Assembly: GCF_902859765.1 (NCBI RefSeq)
Contig: NZ_CADIJV010000010.1
Coordinates: 98,869 to 162,868, forward strand
DNA length: 64,000 nt
DNA from: Achromobacter pulmonis
Lineage (GTDB): Bacteria > Pseudomonadota > Gammaproteobacteria > Burkholderiales > Burkholderiaceae_B
Direction: 5' to 3'
In this document: positions 30,267 to 35,331 of the stretch, one piece after another
Layout: each line of letters starts with the position of its first letter
Numbering within the stretch: position 1 is the first letter of the stretch
Translations under genes and position numbers: made by a program
Notes under the pieces: model-generated
The model's database searches: none
What the model saw: only the letters and a program-made list of their open reading frames with translations
Told to the model about the DNA's origin: nothing

Positions 30267-31277
30267 ATGATCGATTTGCGCAGCGATACCGTCACCCGGC
30301 CGTCCCCGGCCATGTTGCAGGCCATGATCAGCGCGCCGCTGGGCGATGATGTGATGGGCGATGACCCCACCGTCATCCAGTTGCAGCAAGCCGTCGCCGA
30401 ACGCGCGGGCAAGGCGGCTGGGCTGTTCTTCCCGTCGGGCACGCAGAGCAACCTGGCCGCCCTGATGGCGCATTGCGAGCGCGGCGACGAATACCTGGTG
30501 GGCCAGCAGGCGCACACCTACAAGTACGAAGGCGGGGGCGCGGCCGTGCTGGGCAGCATCCAGCCGCAACCCATCGAGCATGCCGAGGATGGTTCGCTGC
30601 CGTTGGAAAAACTGGCGGCGGCGCTCAAGCCCGAAGGGGACCCGCACTTCGCCCGCACGCGCCTGCTGGCGCTGGAAAACACGTTCCACGGCAAGCTGAT
30701 CCCGGCCGACTATGTGCGCGCGGCGACCGACTGGGCGCGCGGCCACGGCCTGGCCACCCACCTGGACGGCGCGCGCGTCTTCAATGCCGCCGTGGCCAGC
30801 GGCAAGCCGTTGGCCGAGATGTGCGTGCCGTTCGATTCGGTGTCGATCTGCTTTTCCAAGGGGCTGGGCGCGCCGGTCGGTTCCGTGCTGGTGGGCAGCG
30901 CCGAACTGATCGCCCGCGCGCGCCGCTGGCGCAAGGTGCTGGGCGGCGGCCTGCGCCAGGCCGGCGTGCTGGCGGCCGCCTGCCTGTATGCGCTGGAGCA
31001 CAATGTCGAGCGCCTGGCCGAAGATCATGCCAACGCGCGCCTGCTGGCCGAAGGCCTGCGCGGCATTGCCGGGGTACGGGTGCTCAGCCAGGACACCAAC
31101 ATGGTGTTCGCGGAGTTCGAGCCGGCGCGTTGCGATGCCCTGACCGCCGCGCTGGCGGCCGACGGCATCCTGATGCGCGCCGTCTATGGCGGCCCGACGC
31201 GCATGGTGACGCACCTGGACCTGTCGGCCGACGATATGCGCCGGGTGGTCGAGGCGGTGGCCCGCCACCTGGCCTGA
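30267..31277 (+). CDS. ltaE: Low-specificity L-threonine aldolase
   Basis: 336 residues of fold-type I PLP enzyme that cleaves threonine or allo-threonine to glycine and acetaldehyde. The start MIDLRSDTVTRPSPAM is diagnostic. The PLP Lys is in CFSKGLGAPVGS, and the HLDGARVFNA block carries the cofactor-binding Asp. It converges on the ABM-domain gene with 12 bases between stops. Co-transcription with the EamA gene is likely. Confidence 0.95.
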   Translation: MIDLRSDTVTRPSPAMLQAMISAPLGDDVMGDDPTVIQLQQAVAERAGKAAGLFFPSGTQSNLAALMAHCERGDEYLVGQQAHTYKYEGGGAAVLGSIQPQPIEHAEDGSLPLEKLAAALKPEGDPHFARTRLLALENTFHGKLIPADYVRAATDWARGHGLATHLDGARVFNAAVASGKPLAEMCVPFDSVSICFSKGLGAPVGSVLVGSAELIARARRWRKVLGGGLRQAGVLAAACLYALEHNVERLAEDHANARLLAEGLRGIAGVRVLSQDTNMVFAEFEPARCDALTAALAADGILMRAVYGGPTRMVTHLDLSADDMRRVVEAVARHLA

Positions 31278-31289
31278 GGCCGCGCGCCG

Positions 31290-31634
31290 TCAGCCGTGAT
31301 GCCTGCGGCTGTCACCCGGCGCCTGGCCGCGCTCTTGCATGCCGTAGTCGCGCAGCACCTGCGCGACGCGCAGGCGGTAGTTGGCGAACACGCCGCCCCG
31401 TCCCGCCTCCTGGGCGCGGCGATGCGATTGCAGCGTGCGCCAGCGCCTGACCGCGTCTTCATCGCGCCAGAATGACAGCGACAGCAGCTTGCCCGGGGTC
31501 GCCAGGCTCTGGAAGCGTTCGACCGAGATGAAGCCGTCGATGGTCTTCAGTTCGTCGATGAGGCCCGCGGCGATGTGCAGATAGGTCGCGGGGTCGCCAT
31601 CGGCGGGTTCGACTTCGAATATTACGGCGATCAT
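31290..31634 (-). CDS. Antibiotic-biosynthesis-monooxygenase (ABM) domain protein
   Basis: 114 residues of ferredoxin-like ABM fold: MIAVIFEVEPADGDPATYL, then LKTIDGFISVERF and the aromatic LLSLSFWRDEDAVRRW. Such proteins are small cofactor-free monooxygenases, haem-degrading enzymes or stress proteins. No active-site set for a specific activity can be assigned. Its start overlaps the stop of the P450-like gene by 4 bases (ATGA on the minus strand), so the two are translationally coupled and probably work together. The C-terminal 12 residues are basic (RRHHG). Confidence 0.85.
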   Translation of the reverse strand: MIAVIFEVEPADGDPATYLHIAAGLIDELKTIDGFISVERFQSLATPGKLLSLSFWRDEDAVRRWRTLQSHRRAQEAGRGGVFANYRLRVAQVLRDYGMQERGQAPGDSRRHHG

Positions 31635-32749
31635 GGGGCGGGTTCCTTGGCCAGATCAAATTGGGGAATGCGGGCGTTGGGCAGGGGGCGGTAGCGAAAG
31701 CGCGCCGCCAGGGCGGCGCTATTGACGCCCGCTTGCAGCAGATGCGCGAGCGCGCCGGCGGCATCGCGGCGCGCGGCGTCGCGCCCGGGGCAGGCGTGGC
31801 CCAGTGCGCCGAAGGTCCAGTGCGCGTCGGGCTGCGCCATGGCCGCCGCGGCGAGCACCAGCAGCACGGTCTCGCCGGCTTCGATGCGCTGGCCGTCCAG
31901 TTCGATAGGGCCGGCCAGGAAGCGGCGGGTATTGTGGATGGGCGGATCGTGCCCCAGCGTCGCGTCGACCAGTTCGCCGGTCTGCGCCGGCGTCAGGCCG
32001 CCCCCCGCGCCCTGGCGGCCGGCCCGCAGCAGGGCGTTGCCCAGCAGGCCGGCGCCGGCTTCGCATGACTGGAACAGCAGGCCCGCCAGGTTGGCGGCAA
32101 GCAGCGCCGGATCGAGGCCGGCCTGTTCCCCCTGGAGGCGCAGCCCGCGCCAGGCGGGGCCGGCGGCCGGGTCATCCAGGTGCGCGCCGAGCCGCGCCAA
32201 CAATCGTTCGGCGGCTGCGTGTCCGGCCGCGATGCGCGCATCGGCGGTGGCAGGCGGCAGGGCCGCGAGGAAGGCGCCGATGTCGCGCGCGCAGTCGGCG
32301 GCCACGGCGCCGGGCAGGCCGAGCGAGCAGGCTTGCGCAAAAACGGGCGCGGCGTGCAGATAACGGTCGATGGCGCCGGCCGATGCCGTGTCCGCCCCCA
32401 GTCGCGACCAGTCGGGCGAAGGGGCCAGCGGCGCCTGCCGCGCCAGGAACTGACTGAACAGCGCCTTGAGGCGGACGTGCCGCGGACCGTCGTTCATCCG
32501 CAGGAAGCGGCCGAACAGCAAGCCGGCCGGCCCGCGGGCGATGCCCCGGGGCACCGCTTCGGCCAAGGGGCGCACGCGGGCGGCGGGATGATGCATGATT
32601 GCGCGGATGGTCCGCGGATCGCTGGCCACCCACAGTCCCAGCCGGGTGTCCCGGTACAGCGGCCGCTCGCGCGCCAGCGCGGCGTAATAGGGGTAGGGGT
32701 CGGGGTGCGTGACCGCCTGCAGCGGATCGGGCGGGAAGGGCGTGGACAT
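31631..32749 (-). CDS. Degenerate cytochrome P450-like protein
   Basis: 372 residues. The P450 fold is clear from the C-helix region NDGPRHVRLKALFSQFL, the I-helix (residues 224-238), the DPPIHNTRRF strand and the haem-Cys loop FGALGHACPG (Cys320). Three landmarks are off. The ExxR motif before DPP reads VDATLGHDPP, with neither Glu nor Arg. The I-helix acid/Thr pair reads CEAGAG, so Glu is kept and Thr lost. About 15 residues of meander between AQPDA and HWTFG are missing. The haem ligand is intact, so it may still bind haem, but ordinary oxygen activation is doubtful. It is coupled to the ABM gene. No ferredoxin or reductase is nearby. Confidence 0.85.
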   Translation of the reverse strand: MSTPFPPDPLQAVTHPDPYPYYAALARERPLYRDTRLGLWVASDPRTIRAIMHHPAARVRPLAEAVPRGIARGPAGLLFGRFLRMNDGPRHVRLKALFSQFLARQAPLAPSPDWSRLGADTASAGAIDRYLHAAPVFAQACSLGLPGAVAADCARDIGAFLAALPPATADARIAAGHAAAERLLARLGAHLDDPAAGPAWRGLRLQGEQAGLDPALLAANLAGLLFQSCEAGAGLLGNALLRAGRQGAGGGLTPAQTGELVDATLGHDPPIHNTRRFLAGPIELDGQRIEAGETVLLVLAAAAMAQPDAHWTFGALGHACPGRDAARRDAAGALAHLLQAGVNSAALAARFRYRPLPNARIPQFDLAKEPAP

Positions 32750-32823
32750 GGGCGGCGCGCGGATGATCGAAGGGACGGCCAGTATGGCCGTGGCGCGCCC
32801 TCGACGATTCGACCTTGGTCGAA

Positions 32824-33669
32824 CTATGCCTGCGCGGCGTCCGCCAGCAGCGCGGCATAGCCTGCGCGCGAATCCGGCCAGCGCAGCGTCAGGCCGCTGG
32901 CGCGCAGGCGGGCGTTGCTGAGCTTCTTGCTGCCGATACCCGCCGGCGCGGGGCCGTCAGCCGGTGCTGGGGCGCCGGCCATTCGCGCCAGATCGGCATA
33001 GAGCTCGTGCAGCGGCAGCGGTGTGTCGTCGCAGCCGATGTAGACGGGCAACGCGTCGGGCAGCAGCGCCAGGTGCGTGATGGCGGCTGCGGCGTCGTCG
33101 ATGTGGATGCGGTTGGCCCAGTGCGGCGGTTCGAGCGGCGCGCGGGCCTTGCCCGCCCGCAGCCGTTCGATCAGTTGCAGGCGGCCAGGACCGTAGAGGC
33201 CGGCGAAGCGCAGCGTGGTGTGCGGGATCGCGCGCGCGGCGAGCGCCGCTTCGGCATCGAGCAGGATGCGGCCATTGAAACCCTGCGGCGCGGGCGGGGT
33301 GTCTTCGTCGACCCAGTCGCCGTGATGTTCGCCATATACGGCGCTGGAGGACACGAACACGATGCGCGCGACCTGGCGCGTGTCGAGCGCGTCCAGCACG
33401 TGGTTCAGGCCGTCGACGAACACGGCGCGATAGGCGGCGGGATCGCGCGCGCCGGCGGTGGCGACATGGATCACGCGGGTGATGCCGGCCGGCAGGGCCG
33501 GCAAGCCGTCGGGCCGGCTGATATCGCCCGGCAGCCAGTGGATGCCGCTGGTGTCGTCCGCCGGCGGGTGGCGGCGCAGCGCGTAGACCGTATCGCCGCG
33601 CGCCAGCAGGCGGCGCGCGGCGCGCTGGCCGAGATCGCCGCAGCCGATGAAGAGCACGCGTTCAGCCAT
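32824..33669 (-). CDS. NAD(P)-dependent epimerase/SDR-type oxidoreductase (YeeZ-like)
   Basis: 281 residues of atypical extended SDR. The nucleotide loop is FIGCGDLGQRAARRL (residues 7-21), and the active-site region is VFVSSSAVYGEH. Later come RFAGLYGPGR and HIDDAAAAI, typical of nucleotide-sugar epimerase relatives such as YeeZ. Substrate is unknown. It follows the ETF-ubiquinone oxidoreductase by 15 bases on the same strand. Confidence 0.85.
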   Translation of the reverse strand: MAERVLFIGCGDLGQRAARRLLARGDTVYALRRHPPADDTSGIHWLPGDISRPDGLPALPAGITRVIHVATAGARDPAAYRAVFVDGLNHVLDALDTRQVARIVFVSSSAVYGEHHGDWVDEDTPPAPQGFNGRILLDAEAALAARAIPHTTLRFAGLYGPGRLQLIERLRAGKARAPLEPPHWANRIHIDDAAAAITHLALLPDALPVYIGCDDTPLPLHELYADLARMAGAPAPADGPAPAGIGSKKLSNARLRASGLTLRWPDSRAGYAALLADAAQA

Positions 33670-33684
33670 GGCCGGCGGCGCCCG

Positions 33685-35331
33685 TCACATGCCGCTGTAG
33701 ACCGGCCCTTCGCCGCCTTGCGGCGCCACCCAGACGATGTTCTGGGTCGGGTCCTTGATGTCGCAGGTCTTGCAGTGCACGCAGTTCTGCGCGTTGATCT
33801 GCAGGCGATCCTCGCCGTGATCGTCCTTGACGAACTCATAGACGCCGGCGGGACAGTAGCGCGATTCCGGGCCGCCGTACTTGGCCAGGTTGACCTGCAC
33901 CGGCACCGAAGGATCCTTCAGCGTCAGGTGGACGGGCTCGTTTTCATCGTGGTTGGTGTTGGAGATGAACACCGAGCTGAGCTTGTCGAAGGTCAGCTTG
34001 CCGTCGGGCTTGGGATAGTCAATGCGGGCGCACTGCGAGGCCGGCTGCAGGCAGGCATGGTCCGGCTTGCTGTGGCGCAGGGTCCAGGGCATCTTGCCCT
34101 TCAGCACCAGTTGCTCGATGCCGGTCATCAGCGTGGCCACGGTACGGCCCTTCTTGAACCACTGCTTGAAGTTGCGCGCCTTGTTCAGTTCGGCGTGCAG
34201 CCAGGAATTCTTGAAGGCTTCCGGATAGGCGGCCAGCTCGTCCTGGCGGCGGTCGGCCACCAGTGCGTCGAACGCGGCCTCGGCGGCCAGCTTGCCGGAT
34301 TTGATGGCGGCGTGGCTGCCCTTGATGCGCGACGCATTGAGGAAACCGGCCTCACAGCCCACCAGCACGCCGCCGGGGAAGGCCAGCTTCGGCAGCGACA
34401 GCAGGCCGCCGGCGGCGATGGCGCGCGCGCCATAGGCGATGCGCTTGCCGCCTTCGAACGTGCCGCGGATGGCGGGATGGGTCTTGTAGCGCTGGAATTC
34501 ATCGAACGGCGACAGCCACGGGTTGGCGTAATCCAGGCCGACGATCAGGCCGACCGCCACCAGGTTGTTGTCCAGGTGGTAGAGGAACGAACCGCCGTAG
34601 GTGTCGGCATCGAGCGGCCAGCCGGCGGTGTGGATCACCAGGCCGGGCTTGGACTGCGCGGGATCGACTTCCCACATTTCCTTGATGCCGATGCCATAGG
34701 CTTGCGGGTCGCGGCCGTCATCGAGCTTGTAGCGTTCGATCAGCTGGCGGCCGAGCTGGCCGCGCGCGCCTTCGGCGAACACCGTGTAGCGCGCGTGCAG
34801 TTCCATGCCGGGCTGGTAGTGGGCGGTGTGGCTGCCGTCGCGGGCCACGCCCATGTCGCCGGTGGCCACGCCGCGCACCGCGCCCTGGTCGTCGTACAGC
34901 ACTTCGACCGCGGCAAAGCCGGGGAAAATCTCGACGCCCAGCGCCTCGGCCTGTTCACCCAGCCACTTGACCACATCGCCCAGGCGGACGATGTAATTGC
35001 CCTCGTTGTGGAAACAGGGCGGCAGCAGCCAGTTGGGCGTGGCGCGCGCGCCGTTCTCGGACAGGAACAGGAACTTGTCCTGCGTCACGGGCACGTTCAG
35101 CGGCGCGCCCTTTTCTTTCCAATCGGGGATCAGTTCGGTCAGCGCCAGCGGGTCCATCACGGCGCCGGACAGGATGTGGGCGCCCAGCTCGGCGCCTTTC
35201 TCCAGGACGCAGACGCCGATTTCCTGGTTCTTTTCAGCGGCCAGCTGCTTCAGACGGATAGCGGTGGCCAGGCCGGCGGGACCACCGCCAACCACGACCA
35301 CGTCATATTCCATCGACTCGCGTTCAGACAT
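33685..35331 (-). CDS. Electron transfer flavoprotein-ubiquinone oxidoreductase
   Basis: 548 residues, the usual length for ETF-QO. An inner-membrane FAD/4Fe-4S enzyme that passes electrons from acyl-CoA and other dehydrogenases via ETF to ubiquinone. The FAD loop VVVVGGGPAGLATA is N-terminal. Cluster cysteines are in RYCPAGVYEF and NCVHCKTCDI near the C-terminus, followed by the conserved NIVWVAPQGGEGPVYSGM end. ATG 35331 has GGGAG eight bases upstream. It is divergent from a thioesterase and near scoAB, a general acyl-CoA/ketone-body setting. Confidence 0.96.
   Translation of the reverse strand: MSERESMEYDVVVVGGGPAGLATAIRLKQLAAEKNQEIGVCVLEKGAELGAHILSGAVMDPLALTELIPDWKEKGAPLNVPVTQDKFLFLSENGARATPNWLLPPCFHNEGNYIVRLGDVVKWLGEQAEALGVEIFPGFAAVEVLYDDQGAVRGVATGDMGVARDGSHTAHYQPGMELHARYTVFAEGARGQLGRQLIERYKLDDGRDPQAYGIGIKEMWEVDPAQSKPGLVIHTAGWPLDADTYGGSFLYHLDNNLVAVGLIVGLDYANPWLSPFDEFQRYKTHPAIRGTFEGGKRIAYGARAIAAGGLLSLPKLAFPGGVLVGCEAGFLNASRIKGSHAAIKSGKLAAEAAFDALVADRRQDELAAYPEAFKNSWLHAELNKARNFKQWFKKGRTVATLMTGIEQLVLKGKMPWTLRHSKPDHACLQPASQCARIDYPKPDGKLTFDKLSSVFISNTNHDENEPVHLTLKDPSVPVQVNLAKYGGPESRYCPAGVYEFVKDDHGEDRLQINAQNCVHCKTCDIKDPTQNIVWVAPQGGEGPVYSGM

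Follow-up and report, generated by a model that had tools for sequence, protein, structure and literature searches.

A P450-like protein of Achromobacter pulmonis lacking ExxR, the I-helix threonine and a full meander: probably a pared-down member of an uncharacterised bacterial P450 family with a one-sided link to an ABM-domain protein

Can a cytochrome P450 lose the ExxR motif, the I-helix threonine and part of the meander and still be a working enzyme, and does the ABM-domain protein whose gene overlaps its own belong to the same system? This question is raised by a locus of Achromobacter pulmonis within the window, that is, the whole stretch of 64,000 nucleotides that was analysed. The P450-like ORF (31631..32749, minus strand, 372 aa) has its stop in an ATGA (31631..31634, minus strand) that also holds the start of a YqjZ-like ABM-domain protein directly downstream (31290..31634, minus strand, 114 aa; PF03992, 6.1e-14), an overlap that was described correctly, coordinates and strand included, in the original prediction and that suggests translational coupling. 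In transcription order, the minus strand carries an ETF-QO gene (33685-35331), an SDR-type gene (32824-33669), the P450-like gene and the ABM gene, and beyond them, on the plus strand, follow an ltaE-like gene for a beta-eliminating lyase and a gene for an EamA transporter. A simple scan of 31200-33750 found no promoter- or terminator-like sites. The evidence presented here argues that the window protein most likely still works as a P450, in pared-down form, and belongs to an uncharacterised bacterial family, a reading to which we assign a probability of roughly 55%; its role would most likely be that of an optional haem-thiolate oxidase acting beside the ABM protein.

The assignment to the P450 superfamily depends on the predicted fold and the haem loop. 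The whole P450 fold was predicted for the window protein, P450 structures in the PDB were matched with E values from 1.2e-6, and the Foldseek TM-scores were moderate, with 0.68 to CalO2 (3buj) and CYP114 (8fie) tied; CalO2, CYP114 and P450BioI (3ejb) share approximately 20% identity with the window protein. The haem-thiolate loop F313-G322 (FGALGHACPG; 31784..31813, minus strand) was intact as claimed, with the ligand Cys320 in an FGxxxHxC context, and its Cys and His were found in all 64 aligned rows. The P450 consensus of this loop is FGxGxHxCxG, and its second glycine is replaced by leucine in the window (L316), whereas glycine stands there in 48 of the 64 rows. Furthermore, Q227, T274, R276, R60 and R84 are invariant in the same rows and R275 occurs in 63; a family signature, N273-T-R-R-F277 (31919..31933, minus strand), follows the K helix, with N273 in 61 and F277 in 60 of them. 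On the other side, ExxR, the I-helix acid-alcohol pair and a PF00067 match are all missing from the window protein: no PF00067 match appeared at E<=1, nor did a search of the whole genome give one at E<=0.001. The PF00067 cut-off was passed by six of nine relatives tested and failed by L047, L045 and L052. In two Achromobacter genomes (G014 with L030/L121, and G026 with L122), the haem loop carries an in-frame insertion of approximately 20 residues, consisting of Gly-Ala-Pro-rich repeats between WTFG and HACPG, with the frame intact.

The best NCBIfam match of the window protein was TIGR04515 (4.6e-12), the family of glycosyltransferase activators of the DesVIII/EryCII type, and this was likewise the best match in all nine relatives tested. 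Together with the tight gene overlap, this match would fit a non-catalytic, P450-derived helper that serves the ABM protein or another enzyme as a scaffold or ligand-binding partner, in the manner of those activators. However, the window protein scored 46 bits and the nine relatives 47-119 bits, where the cut-off is 343, the haem Cys is invariant in the family and the ABM protein persists alone, so that a helper of this kind appears improbable. To our knowledge, P450-derived glycosyltransferase activators are without the haem Cys.

The GTDB scan yielded 96 relatives, and the locus counts given below use the best 80 of these 96, which were distributed among Achromobacter, Bordetella, Cupriavidus, Pandoraea, Pseudomonas, Chromobacterium, Corallococcus, Streptomyces, Rokubacteria, Chloroflexota and others; the residue counts come from 64 non-redundant aligned rows, window included. 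A phylum-wide sample held the family in 8 of 398 genomes at 1e-60, mostly genomes that had already been found. Judged from these relatives, the family is not the oddity of a single genome. In the tree, the P450 of one myxococcal locus (L047, Citreicoccus) groups with the Cupriavidus rows, and its ABM protein is 73-75% identical to the Cupriavidus ABMs versus 62-65% to those of other Myxococcota, which suggests transfer of the pair between phyla. Moreover, the P450 of L100, a record named Mycobacterium sp. KBS0706, is sister to an Inquilinus P450, and this record may be misnamed or the gene may have been transferred.

The oxygen-activation slot of the window protein reads Q227-S-C-E230-A231-G232 (32054..32071, minus strand). 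The claim that its I helix (predicted 214-245) contains no threonine was borne out, and the alignment columns place an alanine at the threonine slot. Across the 64 rows, which come from several phyla, the AGx[DE]TT of usual P450s has become Q[TSAG]x[DE]A, with Gln in 64, the acid in 63 and Ala in 63 rows (Ser in the remaining one); the residue after the slot is Thr in 39 rows and Gly in 17, and the window protein is without that threonine too. P450BioI illustrates the difference, since it has aGHETT and ExxR in the profile alignment where the window family reads QtyEAt. As controls, the same profile was used to retrieve 40 out-of-family P450s from the order; three had no usable ORF, 37 were aligned, and L186 and L205 proved to be wrong-frame ORFs, leaving 35 readable P450s, each of which had the A, G, [ED] and T of the I helix, both the Glu and the Arg of ExxR, and the Cys. 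Because Ala occupies the slot in 63 of 64 family rows and Thr in 35 of 35 controls, the missing threonine is, as far as the aligned rows indicate, a family-wide trait and not a peculiarity of the window. The acid-alcohol pair is not universal among P450s.

A P450 without this threonine might be peroxide-using (peroxygenase-like) and in need of no redox partner. The claim that no ferredoxin or reductase is near agrees with our scan of the four flanking genes, among which neither a ferredoxin nor a ferredoxin reductase was found, and the altered meander would also suit such an enzyme, for the meander lies on the proximal side in P450s. We nevertheless give little weight to this reading. E or D still occupies the acid position in 63 of 64 rows, and CYP152 peroxygenases have Arg-Pro in place of the acid-alcohol pair, an arrangement that is absent here, where the window reads Glu-Ala and the family an acid and Ala in 63 of 64 rows each. 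In addition, the flanking scan covered four genes and redox-partner genes need not adjoin a P450. An ETF-QO gene lies two genes upstream, and it is present without the P450 too.

The ExxR motif was claimed to be missing, and the slot, in the last residues of the predicted K helix (254-267), indeed reads A263-T-L-G266 (31952..31963, minus strand), an AxxG. No E..R string exists at any position of the protein, so that a register shift cannot restore ExxR; with no threonine in the I helix, an alternative register restoring either feature was ruled out. The meander (residues 303-312; 31814..31843, minus strand) is shortened and has lost its arginine. From Asn273 to Cys320 there are 47 residues in the window versus 60-61 in full-meander relatives, and therefore the predicted shortening stands, with a measured size of 13-14 residues instead of about 15. 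Among 108 rows, 43 have a distance of 60-61 and the remaining 65 have another value. The ExxR Glu is present in 43 of 43 full-meander rows (43 of 44 if L056, whose meander is replaced by a repeat at full length and which was scored as altered, is scored as full) and in 10 of 65 altered-meander rows. All ten of the latter belong to Achromobacter; elsewhere, none of 35 altered rows has the Glu. The ExxR Arg occurs in 42 of the 43 full-meander rows, the exception being L092, which reads ExxL and keeps the Glu, and it was lost in 16 of the 65 altered rows, never while the Glu was kept. The rows left out comprise L160 (motif pattern not found; by eye, full meander and ExxR), L161 (311 aa, below the 330-aa cut), L121 (G014 already represented by L030), L122 (G026 omitted), L031-L042 and L128 (duplicates) and L119, L120 and L127 (fragments). 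Three Cupriavidus loci, L056, L069 and L091, carry low-complexity expansions at the meander site, built of AP, SV and PV units in L069 and L091.

Within Achromobacter, the 30 rows show the K-helix slot as ExxR (10), DxxR (6), HxxR (6), AxxR (5), TxxR (2) and AxxG (1). The last is the window genome alone, the Arg being kept in 29 of 30 rows, and R266G thus rests on one genome. Furthermore, the meander Arg stands in all 43 full-meander rows and in none of the 30 Achromobacter rows. Taken together, this distribution reads as a preferred order of loss among the aligned sequences, in which the meander with its Arg would go first, the Glu second and the Arg last, and the window would be the end point. 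L092, with Arg lost, Glu kept and a full meander, speaks against a strict order. In a quick ML tree of 104 rows, inferred with the trait region excluded, the state changed 5 times for the meander, 10 times for the Glu and 9 times for the Arg; well-supported branches provided three independent meander/Glu contrasts, all concordant (sign test p 0.25). With so few independent events, the link between meander and Glu appears to be a consistent pattern and not a proven law.

Are these losses the signs of a gene in decay? Of 52 columns conserved to at least 95% in the 43 full-meander rows, 44 are kept in at least 90% of the 30 Achromobacter rows, and of the eight unkept columns, four are Glu263, the meander Arg and, from the same stretch, one Arg and one Asp, the others being A45, L52, L82 and D17 (87%); as the full-meander group was chosen partly by the Glu, only the other columns are independent in this comparison. 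The median dN/dS of the P450 was 0.31 (78 pairs, 13 Achromobacter sequences), and the window P450 gave 0.21-0.39 against 12 congeners, with 0.21 against A. ruhlandii. The corresponding medians were 0.16 for the ABM gene and 0.23 for the SDR gene (78 pairs each), 0.06 for ETF-QO (66 pairs, 12 sequences) and 0.11 for ltaE (21 pairs, 7 sequences). The P450 is under selection, yet it is the least constrained of the five genes measured. A full-length P450 was found in 31 of 43 Achromobacter genomes, two of which (G020, G030) stop a few codons early. No intact P450 was found in the other 12: eight have an intact SDR and ABM locus with no P450 match between, two (G034, G035) have P450 fragments only, and two, one of them a 57% complete genome, lack both P450 and ABM.

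These absences, the haem loops interrupted by repeats in two genomes and a dN/dS above that of the other genes measured are what would be expected if the P450 were on its way out, with its function lost in Achromobacter and relatives, the motif losses being decay and only the ABM protein mattering. Several observations make this account unlikely. The full-length gene is kept in most of the genus, with dN/dS well below 1; Cys320, His318, Q227, A231 and N273-T-R-R276 stay in all 30 Achromobacter rows while the ERR residues go; and shortening or alteration of the meander extends to all Cupriavidus and Pandoraea rows and to some further ones. Because the Cys and the other conserved residues stay and dN/dS remains at 0.2-0.4, the losses appear selective and not a general decay, and a pseudogene is not favoured. 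A chance origin of the oddities of the window P450 is excluded by the full length in 31 of 43 genomes, the dN/dS of 0.21-0.39 and the predicted whole P450 fold.

If the window P450 is a pared-down but working enzyme, its relation to the ABM protein becomes the next question. The latter scored 52.4 bits against PF03992 (cut-off 23.1), and its closest solved relative is YqjZ (PDB 2go8; 8.7e-9, profile 9.9e-12), which is of the same ABM type and is named hypothetical in its PDB entry. Among the best 80 of the 96 relatives, an ABM gene lies directly downstream of the P450 and always on the same strand in 47 loci (partial in L070), with a gap of -4 to +129 that equals -4 in 23 of the 47. In the order sample of 399 genomes, where family membership was set at more than 230 bits (next match, 171; the partial G553, with 133 bits over 152 positions, uncounted), the family P450 occurs in 13 genomes, ABM in 78 and both in 11, adjacent in 11 of 11. 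The co-occurrence had a Fisher p of 5e-7, uncorrected for kinship, and two of the 11 are the window genome and a congener.

Conversely, ABM was found in 41 of 43 Achromobacter genomes and was retained, similarly conserved, in 10 of the 12 without an intact P450. Within the flank examined, ABM was absent at the P450 loci of both named Bordetella, of 8/8 Pandoraea and of 7/8 Pseudomonas. When the ABMs of 34 P450-bearing loci outside Achromobacter were compared with those of 20 P450-free loci, 34 columns were invariant in both sets (one exception allowed in the P450-free set), and only one column differed between them, weakly. With both genes in 11 of 13 P450 genomes and ABM in 78 overall, the link is real but one-sided: the P450 predicts the ABM, and not the reverse. 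The original prediction of a P450-ABM system thus holds to the extent that a non-canonical P450 is linked to ABM well beyond Alcaligenaceae, whereas an obligate pair was ruled out by ABM without P450, P450 without ABM and the unchanged ABM columns. Partnerless homologues and decayed reading frames had been named as evidence against the pair, and this evidence was encountered in part, namely as the ABM-less loci and the ten ABM-only Achromobacter genomes.

Haem degradation by the ABM protein was considered and found no support in its residues. The haem-degrading ABM proteins IsdG and IsdI use an Asn-Trp-His catalytic triad. In the family studied here, Trp65 and His71, six apart, were present in each of the 104 rows, which include some duplicates, and the triad Asn is absent, the residue being Glu7 in all of these rows. 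The fold search does not discriminate, as it lists IsdI and IsdG unspecifically among many ABM proteins.

The gene neighbourhoods point to a small pathway with a regulator in other bacteria. Among the same 80 loci, an ArsR-type gene, whose members form one cluster, was found in 28, always in the opposite orientation to the P450, and by tblastn, with queries from some of the same loci, in 35; it was also present in 8 of 11 further loci. The ArsR-type label is provisional, as one of three members tested passes Pfam HTH cut-offs, HTH_5 included. The motifs CYDHxAG and CxDWSxR are invariant in 15 aligned members, and their Cys residues make metal or redox sensing possible. No ArsR-type gene was found adjoining the Achromobacter P450 loci. 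The window genome does hold a full-length relative (L164; G000:C13:59892-60551), divergent from an apparent MFS transporter gene and not from a P450.

Of 67 ABM-only loci, 20 were fetched; six carry ArsR-type and NIPSNAP genes, and neither was found in the other 14. In four loci of other Burkholderiales (L137, L145, L146, L150), the order is ArsR, NIPSNAP, ABM, with NIPSNAP, likewise a small protein, at the position of the P450 (a Pfam match in one; the NIPSNAP queries came from three of these loci). Thus, the pathway may be built around the ABM protein, with an exchangeable second protein. Furthermore, an ExxR-bearing relative on a plasmid of Streptomyces sp. NBC_00158 (L168) lies in an annotated, biosynthetic-looking cluster with a 3-oxoacyl-ACP synthase, an iron-containing redox enzyme, an acyl-CoA dehydrogenase, two saccharopine dehydrogenases and an N-hydroxylase of the SidA/IucD/PvdA family. 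No ABM is listed in its 16.5 kb annotated stretch, which indicates that the P450 family is not tied to one pathway; three of the four plasmid records of relatives list no genes in the relevant stretch. Three other ExxR-bearing relatives (L075, L089, L094) share a conserved neighbourhood with each other.

P450s are commonly recognised by two motifs, ExxR and the haem Cys, and the Glu-Arg-Arg (ERR) contacts are thought to hold nearly all P450s together. P450s without ExxR are already known, namely CYP157 of Streptomyces, which are kept as P450s according to an excerpt of PMC3599690, citing Rupasinghe et al. The CYP157 described there keep the Glu and are without the Arg (EVLW, EQSLW), whereas the window family with altered meander loses the Glu first and the Arg last; the comparison uses the description of CYP157, which in this excerpt makes no mention of an I-helix replacement or an ABM linkage. 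As excerpted, one genome census kept only proteins with both the ExxR and Cys motifs (PMC9148083), and another required both and set single-motif proteins aside as pseudo-P450s (PMC7369989), so that ExxR-less members of the family are at risk of being overlooked by such filters. The latter census nonetheless counts 525 CYP157 members, and the two-motif filter is evidently not absolute. In the open-access literature searched, we found no description of Glu loss together with the meander or of a Q-x-x-[DE]-A I helix in P450s, and no paper on P450 with ABM or YqjZ that describes a P450-ABM pair of this kind.

For the pared-down P450 favoured here, the following course may be proposed. Haem would still be bound through Cys320, and with the meander gone the ERR contact set would no longer be needed, its hold on the Cys loop being taken over by other contacts. 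Activation of oxygen or peroxide would proceed without the threonine, via the invariant Gln227, the acid at 230 and/or the substrate, which R60, R84, R275 and R276 suggest to be anionic, although some of these arginines must serve the haem propionates. The P450 would carry out an optional step, either preceding or accompanying the ABM reaction, in a small pathway whose genes in other bacteria adjoin that of the divergent ArsR-type regulator; where the P450 is lost, the ABM protein would go on working alone.

More tentatively, and on sequence evidence, the family as a whole may have come to activate oxygen by a slot centred on an invariant Gln (AGx[DE]TT to Q-x-x-[DE]-A), and several of its lineages may have dropped the ERR triad and meander while remaining a selected haem-thiolate enzyme. 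If so, the ERR triad would be a removable clamp, lost preferentially in the order of meander Arg, Glu and Arg, and the altered proximal face would be served by the ABM protein or another partner instead. A family without this threonine, with an invariant Gln four positions ahead of the slot, would represent a new case of oxygen activation. It forms a natural gradation between members with all of the ERR triad and members with none of it, the haem Cys being constant, in which the purpose of the triad is directly testable.
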